Shown here: piece after piece, positions 28,213-32,995 of the stretch
Layout of the letters: every line of letters begins with the position of its first letter
Position numbering within the stretch: position 1 is the stretch's first letter
DNA from: Thermosynechococcaceae cyanobacterium YX3bin19
GTDB lineage: Bacteria > Cyanobacteriota > Cyanobacteriia > Thermosynechococcales > Thermosynechococcaceae
DNA length: 32,995 bases
Assembly (NCBI GenBank): GCA_030447595.1
Contig: JAUJON010000019.1
Location: 1-32,995 of the forward strand
Reading direction: 5' to 3'
Program-made: the position numbers and the translations under genes
Notes under the pieces: generated by a model
Told to the model about the DNA's origin: nothing
Seen by the model: only the letters and a program-made list of their open reading frames with translations
Databases searched by the model: none

Positions 28213-29001
28213 TTATTCTGCTTCAATCCGATTAATAAAATCAAGGACAATAGCTGAAAACTGTTCCACACGGAAAACATTCCATTCGTGGTAAGCGCCA
28301 TCTACAACTACCATCTCGGAACCTTTATCTGTTGGGCAAGCCCTTGGCCGGCAATGAGGGAAGTTGTCAGATCGTTTGCTCCCCACGAGAAGACAGGGAG
28401 ATTCAATTCTTGGCAAAGCGGTTTGATATCTTTCTCCAATGCTACAAATAATGTCTGGATAGTATTTCGTGTTCGGAAGCAAATGTTGTAAAGCAAAGAC
28501 TGCAACATCTGCACCGCCTGCGGTAATCTCATTTGAGGCGCTCCCACAGTCAGCTCTATAGCTCTTTGCAACAAAACCTTTGGTATAGGATCAACAGGGA
28601 TACCTGTACTCCCAACTAATATCAGGCTTGCTACTAGGTTCGGCATTAAGGCTGCTAACGTCCCAGCAATTCCGCCCCCCAAGGAGTGTCCAACTAAATG
28701 AGACTTTTTAATATTTAACTTATCTAAAAAAGCAATTAAAAATTCAGCGTACTTCTTGTTGTAGTCCCAATCCGCTCTAGAGCCGCTGGTGCCAAACTGG
28801 TAGTTCAGGTGCAATGACCTGATAGTGCTGAGATAAACTATTTAACGCTTCTTGATAAGGCTCGGTTCCAACAGCCCATCCATGTATAAATGAAATTGGC
28901 TTGGCATTGGATACCACCCCTCCTTCTAAGTAGCGAATATGATGTTCATTGACATCAATGTGCTTTTCAGCCAGTTGATATTTCACTTTCTTTACCTGCA
29001 A
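28213..29001 (-). pseudogene. Alpha/beta hydrolase gene, frameshifted
   Basis: A predicted serine hydrolase of about 260 aa, split into three frames. Part 1 (28777-29001) has the oxyanion HGW (ISFIHGWAVGTEPYQ) and ends in VIAPELP. Part 2 resumes with FGTSGSRADWDYN and contains the nucleophile elbow GHSLGGG and LVGSTGIPVDPI. Part 3, after a shift near 28325, gives DKGSEMVVVDGAYHEWNVF with the likely catalytic His, and ends at 28213. The start could be TTG 29001 or GTG 28986; the latter has AGG upstream. The sequence is visibly more A+T-rich than its neighbours (for example 28700-28760), which may mean acquisition by transfer. It follows the acyltransferase by 5 nt, so cotranscription is likely. 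Confidence 0.78.
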
Positions 29002-30292: not shown

Positions 30293-31408
30293 ATGCAGGG
30301 CAACACAGCGATGCTCCCAATCCTTCAAGGTGAGGCAAAGCATCCGCCAGCGAACCCACCCGCCTATGATGAAGCTGAGCAGCGATTTGTCAAACTACTT
30401 GCAGTAGAGGATTTAGATCACTACCTAGCAGTACAACCTTCAGCGGCGACAGGTTTTGAACAAGCGATCGCCAAGGCAATTGTAGAAGCGTATGAGCAAT
30501 CCGGTTCTACGGCAGCCCACCGGTTTCTCCAGCGTATTCTTTATCGAATTAACCGGCTGAAGCTGTTTTGGTACGACGACTTGCGGCACTATACCAACGA
30601 GCGATCGTTCTACTTACAGAAGGTACGCAACCAAATTGAAGCAGCCTGGCAAGCCTGGGAGCTGGCGCAACTCGATGTAGCAGCGCTACAGCAAGAGAAT
30701 GTTCAGCAAGCACTGACTGAGCGCTGTGCCCGTGACCTTGATCCACCGCTATCAGCATCGAGTCGCTATATTCAAGAGCAGATGACGGAAGCGGGCTACC
30801 GCCTGCTGCTGGCGATTGCCTCTTTTGATGGGTTAGTCGAAGGCAGTCGTCTTTCGCGTATCCTCGGCGGAGCCGCCAATGACGTGCAGTGCATGCTGAC
30901 GCGGGTGCTGATGGAGGAGTATGGCGGTGGTCGCCTTGCCCGTAAGCACTCCACCTTCTTTGCCCAAATGCTCGCTGAGTTTGATATGTCCACGGAGCCA
31001 GAGGCCTACTTTGACTTAGTGCCGTGGGAAGTGCTGGCCTGTGCCAATCACAATTTTCTGCTGACAGAGCGAAAGCGCTACTTCCTGCGGTACAACGGCG
31101 GCTTAACCTATTTTGAGGTAGCTGGACCTGCAGCCTACCGGAACTATTTAGCGGCAGCCCAACGGCTGGAGCTGTCAGCCGCGGCAATGGGTTATTGGGA
31201 ACTACACATTAAAGAAGACGAACGGCACGGCCAGTGGATGCTGCGGGATGTCGCTCTTCCCCTGGCGGCCCAATATCCGGATGATGCTTGGGAACTTGTG
31301 CTTGGTTATGACCAAGAGCGGCTGCTGGGCGATCGCGCTGGGGACGCTATTGTGCGATCAGTGCAGAAAGCAGAGCATCAGCCCTTGGCACTTGAAACAG
31401 CGAGATAG
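30293..31408 (+). CDS. Heme-oxygenase-like diiron oxidase ('iron-containing redox enzyme' family)
   Basis: A 371-aa protein with a C-terminal heme-oxygenase-like diiron domain (about residues 165-350). Enzymes of this superfamily use O2 for N-oxygenation, C-C cleavage or desaturation of amino acids and fatty acids. A full set of six putative iron ligands is visible: E183 (DGLVEGS), E209 and H219 (MEEYGGGRLARKH), H305, D309 and H312 (YWELHIKEDERHG). The spacing E-x25-E-x9-H and H-x3-D-x2-H fits the N-oxygenase/lyase group as I recall it from SznF. The N-terminal 160 residues are helical. It is the first of three same-strand genes, followed by a methyltransferase and an aminotransferase, with gaps of about 75 nt. 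The substrate is unknown. Confidence 0.87.
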   Translation: MQGNTAMLPILQGEAKHPPANPPAYDEAEQRFVKLLAVEDLDHYLAVQPSAATGFEQAIAKAIVEAYEQSGSTAAHRFLQRILYRINRLKLFWYDDLRHYTNERSFYLQKVRNQIEAAWQAWELAQLDVAALQQENVQQALTERCARDLDPPLSASSRYIQEQMTEAGYRLLLAIASFDGLVEGSRLSRILGGAANDVQCMLTRVLMEEYGGGRLARKHSTFFAQMLAEFDMSTEPEAYFDLVPWEVLACANHNFLLTERKRYFLRYNGGLTYFEVAGPAAYRNYLAAAQRLELSAAAMGYWELHIKEDERHGQWMLRDVALPLAAQYPDDAWELVLGYDQERLLGDRAGDAIVRSVQKAEHQPLALETAR

Positions 31409-31483
31409 AACGTAGACCACTCGGTTGTACTAGGCACTTTACGGCAATAGTAAGAGCTGGTTCTCCGGCAAGGGGTTTCCAGC

Positions 31484-32296
31484 ATGAGCAATACCAGGCC
31501 ATCAATGGACCTGTCAACTTTTTCAGCTTATCGTCAGCACGGAGTTATTACCTTGAAAGAGATATTAATTAGTCCACAAGAGTCTGCTCAGTTTTACTCT
31601 CCCAACAAAGTTTTCTTTTGTCCAGAAGAATCACAGTTTTACTCCCACTGCTTAGAGCGCTTGGTTCTCCGGAACTGTATCAGTTCTGAACGAGTGGTTG
31701 AGTTTGGCTGTGGGGATGGCAGTCCTGTGATCAGCGCCCTACTGAGAACTCCCTCCAGTAGCTCTATTCATGGTTACGACCTGAATCCTGACGCCTGCAA
31801 GGTGGCAAAGTCAAGAATTGAACAGTATAAACTTTGCAGTCGGTATGTGATTCACAATCAGTCTTTCTTTGAGTCCCCAAAGCCTGAGGCAGAGTATCTG
31901 ATTGCCAATCCACCCTATCTACCGGCACCAGATAAAAATATTCTCATGCCACTTCTGCATGGGGGTACAGATGGCTCTGCACTCACAAAACGGCTTTTAT
32001 CACTCGATTATGACAATGCACTCCTGATGATCTCTAGCTACTCTAACCCGGTGGAAACCGTCAATTATGCAGTAGCTCAAGGTTATGCTGTTGCTGACTT
32101 TATGGTTTCACCCCTAAAGTTTGGTTACTACAGCTCGGAGCCAAAAGTTGAGAACACTATCCTGGAGCTGCGAAAACATCAAAAGGCATTCTATTCTGAC
32201 AACGTATACTTCTTGGCGGGTGTGTTGTTCAAGAAGCGACAGGAATCCCTGGTAGATCTGTCTACTGAGTTATTGCAGGTTATGACTGCTTTATAG
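31484..32296 (+). CDS. SAM-dependent methyltransferase with NPPY motif
   Basis: A 270-aa class I methyltransferase. SAM motif I is VVEFGCGDGS (residues 71-80); the acidic residue after strand 2 is in GYDLNPDA. Motif IV is the NPPY of LIANPPYLPAP (142-145). NPPY is typical of enzymes that methylate amide or exocyclic nitrogens (HemK/PrmC and N6-adenine types), but small-molecule N-methyltransferases may also carry it. About 45 residues precede the SAM fold (with NKVFFCPEESQFYSHCLERL), as in PrmC-like proteins. AAGGGG at 31470-31475 lies 8 nt before ATG 31484. It sits between the diiron oxidase and aminotransferase genes, so a small-molecule substrate is plausible. A true PrmC would contain GGxDG at this place; GGTDGSALTKRLL is seen, so a PrmC-related origin is likely. 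Confidence 0.82.
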   Translation: MSNTRPSMDLSTFSAYRQHGVITLKEILISPQESAQFYSPNKVFFCPEESQFYSHCLERLVLRNCISSERVVEFGCGDGSPVISALLRTPSSSSIHGYDLNPDACKVAKSRIEQYKLCSRYVIHNQSFFESPKPEAEYLIANPPYLPAPDKNILMPLLHGGTDGSALTKRLLSLDYDNALLMISSYSNPVETVNYAVAQGYAVADFMVSPLKFGYYSSEPKVENTILELRKHQKAFYSDNVYFLAGVLFKKRQESLVDLSTELLQVMTAL

Positions 32297-32373
32297 ATTT
32301 CACAAAGCAGGAAAATAGTTCCGGTTGTTCTTGGGCCTAAGGGCCAGAAGGTCCATTGTAAAATCCTCAGAGA

Positions 32374-32995
32374 ATGATTTTTGAAGCCGCTCCAATTGCT
32401 TGGCACAATGGCAGATTAGTTCAGCGTGAACAAGCTGCACCCTCTGTTGCCAGCCATTCCCTCCACCTGGGTGTCGGTGTTTTTGACGGCATGATGGCCT
32501 ATTGGAACCACGACCATTATTATGTTCACCGTCAGACAGCCCATCTAGACCGTCTGCGGAACGGTGCGAATCAAATGGGATTGAGGTTTTCCTGGTCTAA
32601 TGAAGACCTGCAATCTGGTGTCTTGGCGCTTCTAGACGAAGTCCCTGCCGATAATTACTACATCCGACCGATCGTCTACCGTTCAGGACCCCAGTTGAAC
32701 TTCAACGACGCCATGCCTGTTGACGTGGCAATCTTAGGCGTTAGAACTGTCCGGGATGTAGATCAACCTTTAACGTGTCATATCTCCCAGTTTGAGCGGG
32801 TCTCTGGCCGAGCAATTCCCATCACCTGGAAGATCTGTGGAACCTATGTGAATAGTTACTTGACCCGCCGTGCTGCAGAGGCAAGCGGATTTAATGATGC
32901 CATTATGCTTGACCAGGAAGGGCGCATTACCGAAGCCACGGCTCCCAATCTTTTTCTTCTGCAAAAAGATACAGATGTCACCCCAGCACTAACAC
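32374..32995 (+). CDS. Fold-type IV aminotransferase, BCAT-like (3' end outside window)
   Basis: PLP-dependent transaminase related to branched-chain amino acid aminotransferase (IlvE) and D-amino-acid/aminodeoxychorismate enzymes. The 207 codons present begin MIFEAAPIAWHNGRLV and include SLHLGVGVFDGMMAYW and YYIRPIVYRSG. The PLP lysine is K153 (PITWKICGTYVNS), and E187 is in GRITEATAPNLFLL, the usual 34 residues apart. About 90-100 residues are missing at the C-terminus. The tyrosine/arginine loop residues that set substrate specificity cannot be judged fully. It is unlikely to be the housekeeping IlvE: it lies in a probable operon behind a diiron oxidase and a methyltransferase, and GTY replaces the usual GNY after the lysine. 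Confidence 0.87.
   Translation, partial: MIFEAAPIAWHNGRLVQREQAAPSVASHSLHLGVGVFDGMMAYWNHDHYYVHRQTAHLDRLRNGANQMGLRFSWSNEDLQSGVLALLDEVPADNYYIRPIVYRSGPQLNFNDAMPVDVAILGVRTVRDVDQPLTCHISQFERVSGRAIPITWKICGTYVNSYLTRRAAEASGFNDAIMLDQEGRITEATAPNLFLLQKDTDVTPALT

Follow-up and report, generated by a model that had tools for sequence, protein, structure and literature searches.

A heme-oxygenase-like diiron enzyme and a HemK-like methyltransferase form a two-gene unit that recurs among cyanobacteria

The stretch of DNA analysed here (the window; 32,995 nt, positions 1-32995) is one whole contig from a genome that is 74% complete. Three open reading frames on the plus strand occupy its right end; they encode a heme-oxygenase-like diiron enzyme (HDO), a methyltransferase (MT), and a class IV aminotransferase (AT). 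The features are as follows.

30293..31408, plus strand: HDO, predicted heme-oxygenase-like diiron oxidase/oxygenase of 371 aa with an N-terminal helical domain (PF14518, metal ligands, AlphaFold2 model)
31409..31588, plus strand: HDO-MT intergenic stretch of 180 nt, with no Rfam match
31589..32296, plus strand: MT, predicted HemK/PrmC-like class I methyltransferase, 235 aa from a probable TTG (start taken from the L032 locus and orthologues)
32374..32995, plus strand: AT, predicted fold-type IV (IlvE-like) aminotransferase, cut by the contig end (PF01063); judged not to be in the module

HDO starts at ATG 30293 (MQ.N), and its orthologues use the same start. The longest MT reading frame begins at ATG 31484. 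DNA similarity of the MT region to the nearest relative, L032, sets in sharply at TTG 31589; the orthologues start at the position of this codon or a few codons downstream, and a GGAG is found 8 nt upstream of it. TTG 31589 is probably the true start, and the gap between HDO and MT is therefore 180 nt, comparable to the median of ∼184 nt in co-directional relatives among the best 80 of 166 loci. MT and AT are separated by 77 nt. The original prediction had described three intact plus-strand genes separated by about 75 nt. All three genes are present, AT being cut by the contig end, and the MT-AT spacing agrees with that description; the figure of 75 nt between HDO and MT was an artefact of the longest reading frame.

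No Rfam match was found anywhere in the window, and a scan for sigma-70 promoters and terminators performed no better than shuffles. On the minus strand, an alpha/beta hydrolase gene (28308-29001) is apparently split over two frames, of which Pfam matches the larger part only; it is either a pseudogene or an assembly or frameshift error. In Nostocales loci (L033-L111), a conserved element reading roughly TTAATNTTTCTTTATAACYNNRGRAAGAGGTA, with an NtcA-like GTA-N8-TAC after it at about -80, lies ∼60-125 nt ahead of the HDO start; it is outside the window. A GTA-N8-TAC precedes HDO in 41 of 76 sequences, as against a shuffle mean of 3.7, the sequences being related to one another. The spacing of the -10 box at this site is unlike that of a standard NtcA promoter, and the match in the window is only 30 nt before the HDO start codon. 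Because of the relatedness, the odd -10 spacing and the position of the window match, we make no claim of NtcA control.

The co-occurrence of the genes was analysed in 386 genomes across the phylum. An HDO orthologue was present in 30 genomes, and an MT orthologue was present in the identical 30 (hypergeometric log10 p = -44.7, uncorrected for phylogeny and thus overstated because of shared inheritance). A 31st HDO match, in G360, was discounted as weak (E 3.8e-4) and lying inside a 2100-aa frame. The loci named here are the best 80 of 166, and in 75 of these 80 MT adjoins HDO: in 60 it lies downstream and co-directional, and in 15 the genes are convergent. On the tree of either protein the orientation switched only once or twice, and the genes are still neighbours, indicating that adjacency outlived inversion. 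The mirror correlation between HDO and MT was 0.83. The carriers include Nostoc, Scytonema, Microcoleus, Gloeocapsa, Brasilonema, Spirirestis, and Tolypothrix, among others.

Loci in which the pair is not linked were also found. In the near-complete genome G308, both genes are full length and 1.45 Mb apart, and in Chlorogloea (L090) MT is not beside HDO but lies in the genome on a contig other than the expected one. That such separated genes are both kept is independent evidence for a functional link. At L091 MT is missing from the fetched contig because the contig ends, and the genome does have it. Of the five loci where MT is not linked, two (L099 and L086) gave no MT in their genomes of ∼3.4 Mb, which are probably incomplete MAGs. 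The L086 contig, from a MAG that bears the label Tatlockia, has a cyanobacterial HDO near the Aliterella type and is most likely mis-binned.

Decaying copies of the pair were seen in three genomes. In G062 (L141), the HDO beside MT has lost residues ∼124-334, including all ligands, and a full-length HDO is retained on another contig. In G056 (L139), a single deletion joins the remnants of HDO and MT, and the catalytic cores of both are gone. In G352 (L140), HDO lacks residues 1-222 and the MT frame is apparently open, so loss is not in every case joint. Two carriers (G278:C159:114955-115437 and G101:C77:24635-25201) have an additional HDO of distant relationship (25-30% identity) away from the pair. 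The plasmid collection contained distant HDOs only (23-30%).

AT behaved differently. Its orthologues (57-74%) occur in 3 of the 386 genomes, namely the source genome, G197, where AT and the pair are on different contigs, and G172, from which the pair is absent. In the nearest relative, L032 (80% and 78%), the pair is followed by unrelated genes and AT is absent, and no AT orthologue was found near the pair in the other loci among the best 80 of 166. The only AT-type matches near the pair are IlvE-like genes of 28-29% identity, 3 to 8 kb off, in Microcoleus-type loci. The co-occurrence counts (3/386 against 30/386) and the lack of adjacency elsewhere lead us to reject AT as a member of the module; we take it to be a chance neighbour of the pair. 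Apart from MT, the only further conserved neighbours of HDO, again among the best 80 of 166, were ftsI/PBP-like (37/80) and glgB-like (30/80) genes in Nostocales, their names read from translations; we read them as vertical context rather than as part of a pathway. No gene for a transporter, a ligase, or any further pathway step was found linked to the pair.

Taken together, the functional unit is HDO and MT, two genes rather than three. The predicted genes are real, and the co-occurrence across cyanobacterial genomes that had been proposed as a check holds for HDO and MT, which are mostly adjacent and associated far beyond chance. It does not hold for AT, and the transamination step falls with AT. 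What survives of the predicted three-gene operon is a small oxidase/methyltransferase module.

HDO matched the heme-oxygenase-like family in Pfam (PF14518, E 1.6e-27). Its predicted ligands form a 3H/4C set (E183, E209, H219, E275, H305, D309, and H312), and all seven were invariant in 92 sequences. The core 3H/3C residues E209, H219, E275, H305, D309, and H312 align to SznF E215, H225, E281, H311, D315, and H318, replacement of which abolishes activity (PMC11705231). E183 aligns to SznF E189 on auxiliary helix 2, the extra Fe1 ligand that corresponds to RohS E93 (PMC11611611). The 3H/4C site was first seen in SznF and is estimated to occur in ∼25% of HDOs, of which only about a dozen have a characterised reaction (PMC13108848).

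A profile built from 28 HDO orthologues and compared with all PDB sequences gave confident matches to RohS (2.4e-18), SznF (9.9e-14), and HrmI (3.1e-6) only, with no sequence match to UndA, BesC, CADD, AetD, or PolF. Consistent with this, the 18 top Foldseek hits of the AlphaFold2 model (pLDDT 81) were HrmI, SznF, and RohS, with TM scores up to 0.8. These were followed by 3BJD and FlcD; UndA, BesC, CADD, and AetD were weaker, the matches to UndA, BesC, and CADD having E > 0.01. Identity to RohS and SznF is only ∼20%. The C-terminal cupin of the SznF type, with its three His, is absent; HDO ends ∼60 residues past the last ligand, and Pfam gave PF14518 only. RohS, SznF, and HrmI are all N-oxygenases (PMC13108848, PMC10654658). 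By fold and sequence affinity, HDO is a predicted 3H/4C diiron enzyme of the N-oxygenase type, and its reaction would be N-oxygenation, a reading based on the affinity to these three enzymes, the ligand set alone being no proof. The earlier assignment of the oxidase to the natural-product HDO family holds, with its affinity on the side of SznF, RohS, and HrmI rather than that of UndA, BesC, and CADD.

MT carries SAM motif I (VEFGCGDG), the catalytic NPPY, which was invariant in 76 sequences, and the GG.DG of HemK enzymes, and has a private conserved C-terminal half (FGYYSSEPKV...FYS...LAGVLF). The profile of its orthologues placed HemK/PrmC and the METTL5-type NPPY N-methyltransferases as the nearest solved relatives; Foldseek matches were non-specific. 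MT scored 33.6 bits against the PrmC model (RF_mod_PrmC, TIGR03534; cut-off 199.1), and the N-terminal RF-binding domain of PrmC is absent from it. Canonical PrmC was a separate gene in all seven near-complete genomes tested. The score and the separate PrmC of the relatives rule out MT as the PrmC of this genome, and its motifs mark it as a predicted HemK-like NPPY enzyme distinct from PrmC. The source genome itself, unlike its seven near-complete relatives, gave no match above the PrmC cut-off, which probably reflects MAG incompleteness (74%). Known NPPY families methylate planar nitrogens. N-methylation is therefore the likeliest activity of MT, and its methyl acceptor is presumably a nitrogen.

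These data favor, with a probability of about 0.55, a reading in which HDO and MT constitute one short pathway for N-oxygenation and N-methylation of one small nitrogen compound. HDO would bind O2 at its 3H/4C diiron cluster and N-oxygenate (hydroxylate) a nitrogen atom in a small molecule; amino acids, amines, guanidines, and amides are the probable substrates. MT would methylate a planar nitrogen on the same molecule, and the product would be an N-methylated, N-oxygenated metabolite made from a compound that the cell provides with no need of a dedicated assembly line. Methylation could precede oxygenation, as in the streptozotocin pathway, or follow it, as in that of fluopsin; both orders are compatible with the data. 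We infer a common substrate for HDO and MT. An HDO and an N-methyltransferase acting on one substrate is known logic, given SznE/SznF (PMC11705231) and FlcE/FlcA (PMC11363339). Several points weigh against this reading: the 3H/4C site by itself does not prove N-oxygenation; about a dozen HDOs are all that have been characterised, and HrmI, an N-oxygenase, is 3H/3C; identity to RohS and SznF is low; some NPPY relatives act on proteins or RNA and not on small molecules; the pair has no linked pathway gene; and the broken HDO beside an open MT in G352 and the two loci without MT (L099 and L086) depart from a strict pairing.

Could the pair instead protect against stress, with HDO limiting peroxide damage during drying, as has been proposed for DtpC of Acinetobacter, and MT modifying a protective molecule? 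Many carriers belong by name to genera that we take to be soil-crust, rock, or aerophytic. DtpC is itself an HDO, and survival of desiccation depends on its ligand residues (PMC13232832). However, DtpC, which was related to the present HDO at the level of the superfamily, is partnered by a catalase, not a methyltransferase, and we consider this explanation unlikely. It is nevertheless compatible with the two-step pathway, as the role of its product.

It is similarly doubtful that HDO works in the manner of UndA, BesC, or AetD, as a lyase, desaturase, or decarboxylase whose substrate is a fatty or amino acid and whose product MT tailors. These enzymes belong to the same superfamily, and not every 3H/4C member has been characterised. 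Against them stand the lack of a profile match to UndA, BesC, CADD, AetD, or PolF, the much weaker fold matches, and the invariant E183, which fills the Fe1 position used by the substrate carboxylate in UndA (PMC10654658).

Another explanation, that MT is a PrmC-like or METTL5-like N-methyltransferase of protein or RNA and HDO oxidises the same macromolecule, is in our view improbable. The profile matches to HemK and METTL5 and the retained GG.DG of PrmC speak for it; the missing substrate-binding N-terminal domain of PrmC, the separate canonical PrmC, a patchy presence (30/386) unlike that of a housekeeping modification, and the fact that known HDO substrates are mostly small molecules, with one ribosomal-peptide case, speak against it. 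Finally, a three-gene operon of AT, HDO, and MT for transamination, oxidation, and methylation is largely refuted by the distribution of AT described above and retains only a very slight chance, even though all three genes lie on the plus strand with a 77-nt MT-AT gap and the pair is present in two of the three genomes that carry an AT orthologue (p = 0.017, uncorrected for phylogeny).

Returning to the pathway of N-oxygenation and N-methylation, we suggest more tentatively that it is a widespread cyanobacterial two-enzyme route that needs neither an assembly line nor a dedicated ligase and converts a central metabolite directly into a small N-methylated, N-oxygenated (e.g. N-hydroxy, nitroso, or nitro) metabolite, possibly for survival in drying terrestrial habitats. 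A stress-related role may be considered by analogy, the lead coming from the terrestrial carriers and DtpC (PMC13232832). HDO N-oxygenases and HDO-methyltransferase partnerships are already known, and no description of this two-gene module, of its private MT family, or of the phylum-wide pattern was found in the open-access literature subset. An invariant 3H/4C site with a fixed methyltransferase partner recurs across many cyanobacterial families, and genome mining for large clusters could overlook two-gene pathways of this kind. One or two expressed proteins and a metabolite comparison in a tractable Nostoc could reveal a new metabolite.

Among known systems, DtpC of Acinetobacter desiccation tolerance, compared at the superfamily level, is likewise an HDO in a two-gene operon, its partner being the catalase KatE. 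MT resembles the PrmC/HemK glutamine N5-methyltransferases in its SAM fold, NPPY, and GG.DG, and differs from them by its score far under the cut-off, the absence of the RF-binding N-terminal domain, and the separate canonical PrmC. The lysine N-oxygenases HrmI and BelK are the best full-length fold matches (TM 0.74/0.80); they are 3H/3C enzymes of 17-18% identity that form nitro groups on lysine in peptide natural-product pathways. RohS of azomycin biosynthesis (PDB 9PFX, 9PFW) is the closest solved relative by sequence and has the extra Fe1 glutamate, whereas its N-terminal part is shorter, its identity over the fold is ∼22%, and it acts on 2-aminoimidazole in another gene set. FlcE and FlcA combine HDO N-hydroxylation with SAM-dependent N-methylation in one pathway (PMC11363339), but fluopsin C biosynthesis requires five genes, with two HDOs and further enzymes, and includes an oxidative decarboxylation. 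In streptozotocin biosynthesis in Streptomyces, SznF (StzF) is paired with SznE, which N-methylates the same substrate (PMC11705231, PMC13108848). The cyanobacterial pair differs in its lack of a cupin, its ∼20% identity, its HemK/NPPY-type methyltransferase, and the absence of linked pathway genes; it shares with SznF the predicted HDO N-oxygenase type, the same seven 3H/4C ligands, and the N-terminal domain.
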